A DNA stretch of 64,000 nucleotides from Candidatus Zixiibacteriota bacterium (lineage in GTDB: Bacteria; Zixibacteria; MSB-5A5; GN15; FEB-12). Shown one piece after another: positions 5,892-11,101 of this stretch (position 1 is its first letter; every line of letters begins with the position of its first letter). The notes below the pieces were generated by a model, which was not told the DNA's origin, made no database searches, and was given only the letters and a program-made list of their open reading frames with translations. The DNA lies in the NCBI GenBank assembly GCA_017999435.1, contig JAGNLV010000004.1, positions 1-64,000 of the forward strand, in the 5' to 3' direction. The position numbers were made by a program, and so were the translations under genes.

Positions 5892-6083
5892 ATGAACGGT
5901 CCGAAAGACGCCCATCACCGGCCTTTTCTCGGGATGTATTTCAAGTGCTGCCGAGTCTACTCGCGCATCTACCTGAACCGGGAGGGTTCGGCCTTTGTCG
6001 GGTGGTGTCCGAAATGCGCCGGCCAGGTGCGGGTGGGTGTGTCCCCGACGGGCCGCAGGGACCGCTTTTTCACGGCCGAGTGA
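5892..6083 (+). CDS. Small conserved cysteine-rich protein, zinc-ribbon-like
   Basis: 63 aa, no signal peptide. The core reads FLGMYFKCCRVYSRIYLN followed by WCPKCAGQV. The paired CC and CPKC look like a small metal-binding knuckle. I recognise the overall pattern (FLGxxFxCCxVYxRIYxN...GxCPxC, ending in RFF) from short uncharacterised proteins of several environmental phyla, but I know of no function. It has its own promoter, and the ATG at 5892 is the only sensible start after it. The next gene begins 81 nt downstream and may be cotranscribed. Confidence 0.75.
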   Translation: MNGPKDAHHRPFLGMYFKCCRVYSRIYLNREGSAFVGWCPKCAGQVRVGVSPTGRRDRFFTAE

Positions 6084-6164: not shown

Positions 6165-6707
6165 ATGGCGATATTGAGATCTAAGATCGTGGTCGTCCCG
6201 CTCGGTGAGGTTGACCCGATGATGGTCAACCGGTTAGCCGCCGACATCGGCCCGGTGTTCAACCGGTCCGTCGACATCCTCAAGGGCATGAAAATGCCCA
6301 GCGAGGCCCTCAACGTCGTCCGCAGCCAGTACTATGTCACCGTCCTCTTGGCCAAACTCGAGCGCGTCAAAGCCAATTCCCGCGAAAAAGTGATCGCGGT
6401 GTGCGAAGAAGACCTCTATCTTCCCGACCAGGACACCCTGCTCGGCCACGCCGACATTGTCGCCGGAACCTCGGTGGTGTCCCTGTACCAGTTGCGGCAG
6501 GAGTTTTACGGCCTGCCCGAAGATGAGAAGAAGGTGTATCCCCGGCTGTACAAGGAGGCGCTCCACCAGTTGGCCCATTTGTTCGAGTTGCGGGAGTGCC
6601 GCAACCCCCGGTGCGTCAACTACTACAGCCAGATGATGCTCGATATCGACAACAAGGGCCGGAAGTTCTGTGATGTGTGCCGCCGTAAACTGACCGGCGT
6701 GGTGTGA
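6165..6707 (+). CDS. Archaemetzincin-family protein with degenerate zinc-protease motif
   Basis: 180 aa from ATG 6165. The body matches family M54 archaemetzincins: KVIAVCEEDLYLPDQDTLLG, then GTSVVSLYQLRQEFYG, then the C-terminal structural-zinc cysteines C145, C150, C169 and C172 (CRNPRC ... CDVC). The catalytic consensus HExxHxxGxxHC reads H134-QLA-H138-LFE-LRE-C145: the general-base Glu is Gln, the Gly is Glu and the third zinc His is Glu. Peptidase activity by the family mechanism is therefore unlikely, although the fold-holding cysteines remain. A pseudoprotease with a binding role is the simplest reading. The frame is intact, so this is not an obvious pseudogene. The helicase gene follows 62 nt later. 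Confidence 0.85.
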   Translation: MAILRSKIVVVPLGEVDPMMVNRLAADIGPVFNRSVDILKGMKMPSEALNVVRSQYYVTVLLAKLERVKANSREKVIAVCEEDLYLPDQDTLLGHADIVAGTSVVSLYQLRQEFYGLPEDEKKVYPRLYKEALHQLAHLFELRECRNPRCVNYYSQMMLDIDNKGRKFCDVCRRKLTGVV

Positions 6708-6769: not shown

Positions 6770-9046
6770 ATGAACCTCGAACAAGTTCTCGATCTCCTCC
6801 GCTCCGACAAGGACATTTCTGAGAATGTGACGCACTGGCGGTCGTTCGATGCCCGTCCGGCCCGCTATGTCGATTTCCCCGGCGCCCTCGACGGCCGCCT
6901 GATTGGGGCCCTCAAGACCCGCGGCATCGACCGCCTCTACACCCACCAGGGCGAGGCGGTCGCCCACGTAGCCGCCGGCCGCGACGTGGTCGTCGTCACC
7001 CCCACCGCCTCCGGCAAGACGCTCTGCTACAACCTCCCGGTCCTCGACCGCATCATGCGCGAGCCGGAGTCGCGGGCGCTCTACCTGTTTCCCACCAAGG
7101 CCCTCTCCCAGGACCAGCTCTCGGAGCTGTACGACCTGATCCAGAAGCTGGGAGTCGATATCGGGACGTATACGTTCGACGGCGACACGCCGCAGACGGC
7201 GCGGCGGAGGATTCGCGCGGCCGGCCACATCGTCATCACCAACCCCGACATGCTCCACGCCGGCATTCTCCCCCACCACACGAAGTGGATCAAGCTGTTC
7301 GAGAACCTGAAGTACGTGGTGATCGACGAGGTCCACCAGTACCGGGGCATCTTCGGCTCCCACCTGGCGAACGTGATCACGCGCCTGCGGCGGATCTGCC
7401 GGTTTTACGGCTCCGACCCGCAGTTTATCTGCTGCTCGGCGACCATCGCCAACCCGGCCGAGTTGACCGCGCGGATCATCGGCCGCCCGGTCGAGCTGGT
7501 GGACAACAACGGTGCGCCCGCCGGCGAGAAGCACTTTCTCATCTACAATCCGCCGGTGGTGAACAAGCAGCTCGGGATTCGCCGCTCTGCCCTCAACGAG
7601 GCCGCCCGCCTGGGCGCCCTCTTTCTGCGGCAGCGCATCCAGACCATCATCTTCGCCCACTACCGGCTCTACGTCGAGGTGCTCCTCACCTACCTCCAGC
7701 GCGAGCTGCAGGGGGATTTTGGCCGCGGCGTCGTCATTGCCGGCTACCGCGGCGGCTACCTGCCGAACGAGCGCCGCGCCATCGAACAGGGTCTCCGGGC
7801 GGGGCGCATCCACGGCGTCGTCTCCACCAATGCCCTGGAACTCGGGCTCGATATCGGCAGTCTCGACGTCTCCATCATCGTCGGCTACCCCGGCACCATG
7901 GCCTCGCTCTGGCAGCAGGCCGGGCGGGCCGGACGGCGCTCGAAGACATCGCTTACCGTCATGATCGCCAACTCGACCGCCATCAACCAGTTCCTCTGCG
8001 CCGAACCGGAGTACATCTTCGGCCGCACCCCCGAATCCGGCATCATCGACCCGAACAACCTCATCATCCGCAGCAACCACCTCAAGTGCGCGGCCTTCGA
8101 ACTCCCCTTCGAGGAGCACGAGTACGCCCGCGACGACGGCACCCGCGAGATCCTCGAGTACCTCGAGGACGCCAAGATCGTCCGCCACGCCGGCGCCCGC
8201 TACCACTGGTCGTCGGAAATCTACCCCGCCCAGGAGGTGTCGCTGCGCTCCGCCTCCCCGGAAAACTTCGTCATCCTCAACGAGAGCAACCGCTCCGAGG
8301 TGATCGGCGAGGTCGATTTCTTCTCCGCGCCCATCTTCCTCCACCCGCAGGCAATCTACCTCCACCGCGCCAACCAGTACCAGGTCACCCGCCTGGACTG
8401 GGAGGGGCGCAAGGCGTACGTGAAAGAGGTCTCCGTCGATTACTACACCGACGCCGAAACCAAGACTGACCTGAAGGTGCTCGATGTCGACCGGACCCGG
8501 CGGTTCGGCGAGGCCGACATTTCGTGCGGCGAGGTCACGGTGACCAGTGTCACCGTGCTGTTCAAGAAAATCAAGTTCGAGACCCACGAGAACGTCGGGT
8601 GGGGCAAACTCACCATGCCGGAGATCGAGATGCACACCCACGCAGTGTGGTACTCGTTCGCGGGCGACGTGGCTTTCCGGGTCGGGGTGGGCGGCGAGGA
8701 TTTCGGCGGGGCGTTGCGCGGCCTCGCCAACATCCTCGGCAAGATCGCCCCCCTGTGGGTGATGTGCGACGCGCGCGATCTGCGCGCCGTCTCCCAGGTC
8801 CGCGCCCCCTTCACCGAGTGCCCCACCATCTTCCTCTACGAAAACATCCCCGGCGGCGTGGGGCTGGCCGAGAAGCTCTTCACCGAGCACGAACGGCTCT
8901 GCGAGGCGGTCTACCACCGCCTCCGCGGCTGCGGCTGTGAGGCCGGCTGTCCCGCCTGTGTCGGACCGTCCATGGAAATCGGGGCCGGCGGCAAGGCGGG
9001 CGCCCTCCGCCTCCTGGAGTACATGCTCGCCACCGCCCCCGTCTAG
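6770..9046 (+). CDS. DEAD/H-box helicase with DUF1998 (MrfA/YprA-like)
   Basis: 758 aa. Superfamily 2 helicase motifs in order: Q-like region LYTHQGEAVAHV, Walker A TPTASGKTLCYNLP, DEVH box VIDEVHQYRGIFGSHL, motif III CSATIANP, motif V GLDIGSLDVSIIVGYPG and motif VI QQAGRAGRRSK. The C-terminal DUF1998 half ends in a cysteine cluster CGCEAGCPACVG, as in Bacillus MrfA, a 3'-5' helicase used in mitomycin-type lesion repair. Family members often work with an adjacent nuclease (MrfB), but none is next to it here. A GTG at 6704 would add 22 unmatched residues; the ATG at 6770 (MNLEQVLDLLRSDK) fits better. A DNA-repair role is inferred from the family. Confidence 0.92.
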   Translation: MNLEQVLDLLRSDKDISENVTHWRSFDARPARYVDFPGALDGRLIGALKTRGIDRLYTHQGEAVAHVAAGRDVVVVTPTASGKTLCYNLPVLDRIMREPESRALYLFPTKALSQDQLSELYDLIQKLGVDIGTYTFDGDTPQTARRRIRAAGHIVITNPDMLHAGILPHHTKWIKLFENLKYVVIDEVHQYRGIFGSHLANVITRLRRICRFYGSDPQFICCSATIANPAELTARIIGRPVELVDNNGAPAGEKHFLIYNPPVVNKQLGIRRSALNEAARLGALFLRQRIQTIIFAHYRLYVEVLLTYLQRELQGDFGRGVVIAGYRGGYLPNERRAIEQGLRAGRIHGVVSTNALELGLDIGSLDVSIIVGYPGTMASLWQQAGRAGRRSKTSLTVMIANSTAINQFLCAEPEYIFGRTPESGIIDPNNLIIRSNHLKCAAFELPFEEHEYARDDGTREILEYLEDAKIVRHAGARYHWSSEIYPAQEVSLRSASPENFVILNESNRSEVIGEVDFFSAPIFLHPQAIYLHRANQYQVTRLDWEGRKAYVKEVSVDYYTDAETKTDLKVLDVDRTRRFGEADISCGEVTVTSVTVLFKKIKFETHENVGWGKLTMPEIEMHTHAVWYSFAGDVAFRVGVGGEDFGGALRGLANILGKIAPLWVMCDARDLRAVSQVRAPFTECPTIFLYENIPGGVGLAEKLFTEHERLCEAVYHRLRGCGCEAGCPACVGPSMEIGAGGKAGALRLLEYMLATAPV

Positions 9047-9067: not shown

Positions 9068-9370
9068 TCAGTTGCCGGAGCCGTCCCGCGCCCCCCGGCC
9101 GTGGCGCTCGAGAATCGCGTCGATTTCCTCCATCGTGAAGTAGGTCAACTGCGTCACTTTCGCCTGGGAGCGAAAGGCCGGCGGCACGACGCTGCGGGCG
9201 GCCTCCCGCGTGTCCGTCTCGACCGTGATCCAGGCCTTGTGCTCGCCGTCCTCGCACCCCCAGTCCGCGTGGGTGAGAAAATGCGATCCGGTCTCCAGGA
9301 ACACCTTCACCACCCGGGCGCAGGCGACCGTGTCTTCCTCGTGGGGCACTTCGATGAGATAGCGCGGCAT
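9068..9370 (-). CDS. Small conserved hypothetical protein
   Basis: 100 aa from the ATG at 9370, which has AAGGAG about 10 nt upstream; a longer frame upstream lacks this. The N-terminus MPRYLIEVPHEEDTVACARV and the block FLTHADWGCEDGEHKAWI are reminiscent of short uncharacterised proteins in environmental bacteria. No signal peptide or transmembrane segment. The alternating beta/alpha pattern and length resemble a ferredoxin-like single domain, but I know of no function. It converges on the helicase gene with a 21-nt gap and stands alone on its strand. Confidence 0.72.
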   Translation of the reverse strand: MPRYLIEVPHEEDTVACARVVKVFLETGSHFLTHADWGCEDGEHKAWITVETDTREAARSVVPPAFRSQAKVTQLTYFTMEEIDAILERHGRGARDGSGN

Positions 9371-9521
9371 CGTAATCACGCTCCTTTCGTCCGACGCATT
9401 ATGCAATGTATGGATCAAAATAATCTACGATACGCCTGCCCGCCGGGCAAGCGCAAAATGCATTCCCGCAGCGGCGCGTTCGTCCGCCGCCGGATGTGGG
9501 TCGCCGGCCCAGATCCCCTCT

Positions 9522-10154
9522 TTACCGGGGGCTGTACAGGAGGTAGCGCGCCCGCGGCGCCTCCCACCCGGCGTCCGTCTGGACCGGACGCCCCCACTTC
9601 TCCAAACTCAGCGACAGATCGATCGTGCTCACCTGCCCGTCCGCCACCACGATGCTGTCCACGAGAACGGGCCGGAAATAGTAGTCATAGGGCGGCATCG
9701 ACTTGACCGGGTCGGTGATGGTCGTGTCCCCATCCGGACTCACCACAGTATCCAGCTTGGTCTCCGCCCGACCCAGCCGCGACACGTAGACGAGCAGCGT
9801 GTACCTCCCCGGCGGGACGCTGTCGAGCACGCTCTCGAATCCGTCAAACTCGCGGTACCGGAGCACCTCGTAGTTGGCGATGGAATCCATGAGCGCGTAC
9901 TGGTGCAGGCCGAGTTCGAAGGGCTGGAGGGGAATCGGCCCGCGCAGGTGGTAGAAACCCCTTGAGACAATCTCGGGCGAATAGGGGCCGGTGATCAGGC
10001 GAATCACGCCGAAACCCTCCGGGACCGCAATGACCCGGTCGGGAACGACCTGGGGACGGTCCGGGTTCGGGGCAGGCTGCTCGGACTTCGAACAACCGCC
10101 GACAGCGAGGACCGACAGGGCGGCAAGCACAACGAGGATACGGCAGCGGCGCAT
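9522..10154 (-). CDS. Lipoprotein downstream of mlaD
   Basis: About 210 aa. The signal peptide VVLAALSVLAVGGC has a lipobox cysteine about 21 residues from the start, followed by SKSEQPAPNPDRPQ, a linker typical of outer-membrane lipoproteins. The mature domain is beta-rich with PPGRYTLLVYVSRLGRAET and VADGQVSTIDLSLS, suggesting an Ig-like or PEGA-like fold. The ATG at 10154 is preceded by GGGAG; an in-frame ATG at 10166 overlaps the mlaD stop as TGATG and is also possible. As last gene of the mla operon it might act as an outer-membrane partner, but it resembles neither MlaA nor PqiC. Confidence 0.78.
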   Translation of the reverse strand: MRRCRILVVLAALSVLAVGGCSKSEQPAPNPDRPQVVPDRVIAVPEGFGVIRLITGPYSPEIVSRGFYHLRGPIPLQPFELGLHQYALMDSIANYEVLRYREFDGFESVLDSVPPGRYTLLVYVSRLGRAETKLDTVVSPDGDTTITDPVKSMPPYDYYFRPVLVDSIVVADGQVSTIDLSLSLEKWGRPVQTDAGWEAPRARYLLYSPR

Positions 10155-10165
10155 TCCAACTCCCA

Positions 10166-11101
10166 TCAGAAAATCGAAAACCCCAGATACTTTTTCGGAT
10201 CGTCCTGAATATCCTTGACCAGCCGGTTGCTCCGGGCCAACAGAGCGGCGATCTCCACGTACAGGGTCGTATCGTTGACCAGCAGCCCGAGACTCCCTTC
10301 GGCCCGGTTGATCTTCGTCAGGGTCGAGTCCAACTGCGAGGTAAGCGCAGTCAGATTGGCGTAGAGCATGGTGTCGGTCACCAGCCGCCCGACTGTCCCC
10401 GTCGAGTCATCGAGCTTCTCCCCCACGTCGGCCATCGTGTTGGCCGCCCGGGTCACCGAGGTCAGCAGTTCCTTTTGGTTGGCCTGGAGACCGCGGGCGA
10501 GGTCGGCCATCTCGGAGGCCAGCCGCGTCATCTGCACGTACAACTCCTGGTTGGTGGCGAGCATTCCGAGCGTGCCGACGCCGGCGTTGGCCCGGGCGAG
10601 CAGCGTATCGAGGTTGGCCGCCAGCGCCTCCGCCTCACCGATGGCATTCTCGGCCGCCGCGAATACCGCTTCGGCGCTCCCCACGTCTTGGGGCGGAATG
10701 AGCGATCCCTCGGGAAGGACCGGCCCGCCGATTCCCCCGGGGATCACTTCGAGGTACTTGTCGCCGAGAAACCCGATCGTCCCGAGCTGCACCCGGGCGT
10801 CGCTTGTCACCATCTTGTGCACCGACTCTTTGACCGTGAAGGTGATCAGGACCCGCCGGAGGCTGTCGAGGTTGACGAATTCGATGCGGCGGACGTTCCC
10901 GACTTCGACCCCGGCCATCCACACCGGCGCCCCGGCGACCATTCCGCTGACATTCTTAAAGTAAGAGTGGTAGGTGAATTTGGCGGAGAAGATCGAGGTT
11001 CCGCCGCCGCTGAGCGAGGCCCAGAGCAGAACCAGGATCGCCAGCATGATGAGGATCCCCACCTTCAACCCGCCCCACTTGACACCGACCGTACTTCTCA
11101 T
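10166..11101 (-). CDS. mlaD: MlaD-like MCE-domain lipid transport protein
   Basis: About 311 aa. One N-terminal transmembrane helix (GGLKVGILIMLAILVLLWAS) is followed by a single MCE domain (YFKNVSGMVAGAPVWMAGVE, VGNVRRIEF, GTIGFLGDKYLEVIPG). The C-terminal half is a long helical/coiled-coil stretch with repeated LAxMAD and TMADVGEKLDD segments, as in longer MlaD homologues that form a hexameric periplasmic tube. An upstream TTG at 11140 is open in frame, but the ATG at 11101 (MRSTVGVKWGG) is a better start. The gene lies 57 nt after mlaF. It is expected to bind phospholipid in the periplasm for the MlaFE ABC transporter. Confidence 0.93.
   Translation of the reverse strand: MRSTVGVKWGGLKVGILIMLAILVLLWASLSGGGTSIFSAKFTYHSYFKNVSGMVAGAPVWMAGVEVGNVRRIEFVNLDSLRRVLITFTVKESVHKMVTSDARVQLGTIGFLGDKYLEVIPGGIGGPVLPEGSLIPPQDVGSAEAVFAAAENAIGEAEALAANLDTLLARANAGVGTLGMLATNQELYVQMTRLASEMADLARGLQANQKELLTSVTRAANTMADVGEKLDDSTGTVGRLVTDTMLYANLTALTSQLDSTLTKINRAEGSLGLLVNDTTLYVEIAALLARSNRLVKDIQDDPKKYLGFSIF

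Follow-up and report, generated by a model that had tools for sequence, protein, structure and literature searches.

A Zixibacteria archaemetzincin with a degenerate active site and a conserved zinc cluster, paired with a small zinc-ribbon-like protein

Introduction

The closest described counterpart of the protein considered here is CarG of Myxococcus xanthus. This archaemetzincin has no proteolytic activity and, together with CarD, serves as a transcription cofactor (PMC3427221, PMC8156234, PMC9304148). CarG carries the motif HQx2Hx2Ex2HCx4CxM, its gene lies downstream of carD and is coupled to it, and the CarD-CarG complex serves ECF-sigma promoters (PMC3427221, PMC8156234, PMC9304148, PMC4374960). 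Inactive archaemetzincins of this type have been described as restricted to certain related myxobacteria (PMC8156234, PMC9304148). The NCBIfam family NF033824, "non-proteolytic archaemetzincin-like protein", probably models CarG. The statement in the initial annotation of our locus that archaemetzincins have no settled function in bacteria overlooks this work. Human AMZ1 offers a more distant parallel: its third histidine is replaced by Asn, Ser or Thr (PMC3427221), much as in the Zixibacteria families f14-f16, but loss of the catalytic glutamate has not been reported for it (PMC3427221), and it is a eukaryotic protein in a different context.

Here we describe an archaemetzincin gene from the window, meaning the whole 64,000-nucleotide stretch of Candidatus Zixiibacteriota DNA that was analyzed, together with its neighbours (Table 1) and its relatives. 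Genomes, loci and families are denoted by G, L and f numbers, and "the order" is that of the window genome. Copies with a degenerate active site are called dead.

Table 1. Features of the archaemetzincin locus in the window
Feature	Coordinates	Strand	Basis
p63, 63-aa zinc-ribbon-like protein with CC-x18-CPxC core, upstream partner gene	5892..6083	+	sequence, neighbourhood
Dead archaemetzincin, M54 fold, 180 aa	6165..6707	+	profile, predicted structure
Former zinc-protease motif HExxHxxGxxHC, now HQLAHLFELREC, residues 134-145	6564..6599	+	sequence
Structural zinc site CysX4CysX18CysX2Cys, residues 145, 150, 169, 172	6597..6680	+	alignment
MrfA/YprA-family DEAD/DEAH helicase with MZB zinc domain	6770..9046 (ATG 6770, or GTG 6704)	+	downstream neighbour; profiles

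Results

The active site is degenerate and the zinc cluster is retained

The archaemetzincin gene is a single uninterrupted frame, the product of which scores 62.5 bits against Pfam PF07998 Peptidase_M54 (cut-off 24.4) and 137 bits against NCBIfam NF033823 archaemetzincin, slightly below the cut-off of 145. Its AlphaFold2 model (pLDDT 81.6) matches the solved archaemetzincins 4axq, 3zvs, 3lmc and 2x7m with Z scores of 21-23 (4axq 23.4, 3lmc 22.4, 2x7m 21.4). The fold is common to archaeal AmzA (4axq, 3zvs, 2x7m) and 3lmc over near full length, and so is the Cys4 site; these proteins have the family catalytic motif, whereas the window protein is without Glu, Gly, third His and Met. The initial annotation had correctly read the catalytic glutamate, the motif glycine and the third histidine as substituted in HQLAHLFELREC, but missed the loss of the Met-turn methionine (CxM after the second cysteine), a residue of the published archaemetzincin family motif (PMC3427221), which is Asn152 here (CVN). 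The stretch is followed by CRNPRC and FCDVC, and the four structural cysteines of the CX4C...CX2C site are invariant in all 96 dead and all 27 intact sequences compared. The accompanying claim, that the cysteines and the fold are kept in an intact frame, is confirmed by this invariance, by the structural matches and by the single frame.

The substituting residues themselves vary. At position 135, the 63 order sequences carry Q in 43 cases, R in 13, H in 4, F in 2 and L in 1; position 141 is mainly D, E or N, and position 144 is E (33), D (10), S (10) or another residue. Gln/Glu/Glu, which the initial annotation proposed to check for conservation as a subfamily, is therefore not a conserved motif; the Met-turn position is Asn or His in 63/63. 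To judge from these alignments, the catalytic positions drift, whereas the Cys4 site and the fold stay frozen.

The loss is shared across the order and the gene is under strong constraint

Relatives were taken from Candidatus Zixiibacteriota records and comprised, for the same family and order, 61 genomes, 38 of them of good quality. An archaemetzincin match is present in all 38, and in 37 it includes a dead orthologue with 56-79% identity; the count falls one short because the sole match in G051 is an intact paralogue. None of the order orthologues has the catalytic glutamate or the third histidine. Close relatives with an intact motif, which the initial annotation took as the sign of a recent isolated mutation or a sequencing error, are missing among the order orthologues. 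The intact relatives that share the synteny all belong to a different family (G068) and there bear witness to the ancestry of the gene. Some archaemetzincin is found in 95 of the 97 phylum genomes, and the NF033824 cut-off is passed in none of the 97. Neither the archaemetzincin nor p63 matched any plasmid record. One locus, L050, comes from a record titled Ignavibacterium sp.; its gene order and 70% identity are typical of Zixibacteria, and the record is probably mislabelled.

For within-genus or near pairs, NG86 dN/dS ranges over 0.010-0.059 in the dead lineage (8 pairs, one of which, at 0.019, has saturated dS) and over 0.055-0.122 in the intact paralogues (4 pairs); values in the dead lineage are mostly under those of the paralogues, the numbers of pairs being small. 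The Cys4 site, E74, D83, R127 and D162 are invariant in the dead lineage and the motif positions variable, a pattern that fits the loss of catalysis with a binding role gained or kept. K7, P45, E47, K64 and E74 are near-fixed among dead copies, whereas the intact paralogues vary there, as a new interface would predict. The reading as a non-proteolytic M54-fold protein under strong selection is well supported, subject to biochemical proof. The selected non-proteolytic role proposed in the initial annotation draws its support from the order-wide conservation, the very low dN/dS, the invariant Cys4 site and the stable synteny.

The intact archaemetzincins of Zixibacteria share the phylum, the fold and about 30% identity with the window protein, but differ in their intact motif, patchy distribution, somewhat weaker constraint and association with a histidine kinase/NtrC-type operon. 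In many genomes these paralogues follow a histidine kinase and an NtrC-type regulator, which suggests two-component control of the active archaemetzincin. At L093, L099, L102, L105, L108, L112, L113, L129 and L131, the genes immediately before the intact paralogue encode a histidine kinase and a response regulator of the sigma-54 type.

Catalytic residues were lost in steps

A tree of 93 archaemetzincins (66 dead, 27 intact) was built with the five motif positions masked. Every dead sequence falls into one clade of 69 rows with support of 100/99, the early branches of which include intact members. Not all of the deep branches uniting the families of this clade are well supported. The early branch of G068 has HELGHTMNLHHC, in which the glycine is replaced and the glutamate and all three histidines are present, and its gene adjoins the helicase; G084 and G086 are intact early branches with HEIGHLMGFKHC and HELGHLMGFKHC. 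In f14, f16 and one f15 genome, HExxH is for the most part retained but the third histidine is lost, and families f5, f7, f9, f10, f17 and most of f18 display further loss, e.g. RVVGALFSIPYC and KIVARLMGMRAC. At minimum, 6 changes on the tree are needed for the glutamate and 3 for the third histidine. Since the replacement of Glu by Gln recurs in several branches (f6, f12, f13, f15 and the order) as well as in CarG, the shared glutamine is weak evidence of kinship. On this tree, the loss proceeds in steps, starting from an intact ancestor that in one family already lay beside the helicase.

A small zinc-ribbon-like protein is the tightest partner

The invariant pattern of p63 is G-x4-CC-x2-Y-x-R ... 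CPxC ... G ... F, and its predicted fold is small and of beta type. Searches of Pfam gave only weak and inconsistent zinc-ribbon matches and those of PDB sequences no match, while the fold matches of the model reach Z of about 3 or below and include the Elf1/ELOF1 and NrdR zinc ribbons. We found no curated family for p63; it represents a family of small, conserved proteins marked by CC and CPxC motifs, and this family deserves a name.

In 84 loci, a count that includes some genomes twice from two collections, p63 is located directly 5' of a dead archaemetzincin, the two genes overlapping by 4 nt at one extreme and lying 172 nt apart at the other (83/84 at most 150 nt). It is single-copy in 75 of the 97 phylum genomes, never without a dead archaemetzincin (0/75), and the genomes with no dead copy (G051, G080, G093) have no p63 either. 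The tree set contains 54 dead copies with p63, 12 dead copies without it and 27 intact copies, none of which adjoins p63; this association is confounded by phylogeny, with only 2-3 independent contrasts and few independent events. The absence of p63 at G002 and G061 is explained by contig ends. It is also absent beside the dead gene in G017, G065-G067, G078, G097, G104 and G106, and so is not strictly required. In the related genomes G104-G106, sequence suggests that p63 was lost and the archaemetzincin kept. At L125 (G105), p63 at about 913-1071 has an in-frame TGA; in the sister genomes G104 and G106, p63 was not matched at all.

Genes further upstream are deoB/deoC in the order and ROK, aminotransferase and others in other families; as they differ between families, p63 is the constant partner. 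In the window, an ECF sigma factor gene followed by a zf-HC2 anti-sigma gene occupies 1706-2915, and the block of sigma/anti-sigma genes, deoB, deoC, p63, archaemetzincin and helicase is conserved throughout the order. The helicase, which matches TIGR03817 and contains the zinc-binding domain of MrfA, follows the archaemetzincin directly, at 0-66 nt in most order loci and at 8-140 nt in several other families; it also adjoins the intact ancestor-like gene of G068. Within 4 kb of the archaemetzincin, no helicase was found in f14 and f16, and in f15 and f18 the two are separated by other genes, part of them in opposite orientation; the p63-archaemetzincin pair persists without the adjoining helicase in f14-f16 and f18. 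The expected place beside the helicase and p63 is therefore upheld for p63 upstream and for the helicase 3' in most order loci, and fails in the several genomes without p63 and in f14/f16 for the helicase. The p63 and archaemetzincin genes are a near-obligate pair, probably co-transcribed, and the helicase is a looser neighbour.

Beyond the helicase, the window contains two predicted proteins (9068-9418 and 9522-10166, both on the minus strand) with no Pfam match at E 0.01. Membership in a defence system was rejected: PADLOC gives only partial helicase-core matches for the helicase, and none for p63 or the archaemetzincin.

Discussion

For CarG, no protease activity is reported; in the window protein, the residues present predict that peptidase activity is absent. 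With the fold and zinc cluster kept, the cutting machinery lost and p63 nearly always adjoining, a non-cutting role as a partner protein is probable, and CarG offers a proven precedent, by analogy, for a non-proteolytic archaemetzincin acting in this way. On balance we favour a phylum-wide pseudoprotease that serves, with p63, as a zinc-stabilised adaptor or scaffold in a nucleic-acid transaction. The Cys4 zinc site would hold the archaemetzincin fold together, and the substrate cleft, lacking a general base, a complete metal triad and the Met-turn methionine, would be unable to cleave peptides. The protein likely works with p63; the two may form a physical complex and bind partners as adaptor or scaffold. 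The client process could be transcription control resembling that of CarG, or service to the adjoining MrfA/YprA-type helicase.

The first of these clients, taken as a full reading, would make the protein a zinc-bound, non-DNA-binding cofactor recruited to ECF-sigma promoters by an RNA-polymerase-binding protein of the CarD/CdnL family, which we regard as possible but rather doubtful. CarG, with its proven function, is inactivated likewise (HQx2Hx2Ex2HC): both proteins have Gln for Glu and Glu for the motif Gly, keep the four cysteines, measure about 170-180 aa and are encoded just 3' of a partner gene, and some 4 kb upstream are the ECF sigma and zf-HC2 anti-sigma genes, in a block conserved throughout the order. 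However, these sigma genes are away from the archaemetzincin gene in other families. The window protein matches the CarG motif through HQx2Hx2E only, with Glu for the third histidine and Asn for the methionine; CarG retains both and has CarD as partner, whereas the window protein has lost both and has p63. The partner of CarG is missing as well: the sole CarD_TRCF domain of the window genome is in a 1180-aa Mfd-sized frame, and each searched order genome with a match has one such domain in a long Mfd-sized frame, the exception being G053, where a contig end carries a second match. Apart from that exception to the single domain, no standalone CarD/CdnL was found in the window genome or in the searched order relatives. 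The score (90.9 bits, where the cut-off is 250), the motif and the missing CarD together rule out membership in NF033824/CarG proper.

The second client we regard as equally doubtful. An accessory protein of the DNA-repair helicase would be in keeping with the short spacing in most order loci and several other families, including G068, and with the MrfA-type domain content of the helicase, but the distant or interrupted arrangements in f14-f16 and f18, where the p63 pair persists, speak against it. It is improbable that the catalytic site still binds a metal through His134, His138 and Glu/Asp144, for other metal-dependent chemistry or regulatory metal sensing: two histidines and an acidic third-ligand residue are present in 30 of the 52 distinct order sequences, and two bound zincs are reported for CarG (PMC8156234), but at least one of these residues is missing in the other 22, R, K, Q or T stand in their place in related families, and the site belongs to the more variable regions of a protein in which other positions are invariant. 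A sequencing error, a recent isolated mutation or a pseudogene has practically no probability and no observation in its favour, the loss being common to independent assemblies across the order and dN/dS lying far under 0.1.

The adaptor or scaffold reading admits a bolder extension, which we offer as a long shot: the p63-pseudoarchaemetzincin pair might be an accessory complex that serves transcription or repair throughout the phylum, in the position that CarD/CdnL-type factors have elsewhere, and that reuses the protease fold as a scaffold. The Zixibacteria proteins represent a second inactive archaemetzincin lineage beside the CarG type, phylum-wide and with a different partner. The stages from intact to fully dead are visible in this lineage, under constraint at least that of the active paralogues. 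The reuse of archaemetzincins thereby becomes testable in a second setting, with a shortlist of two proteins.
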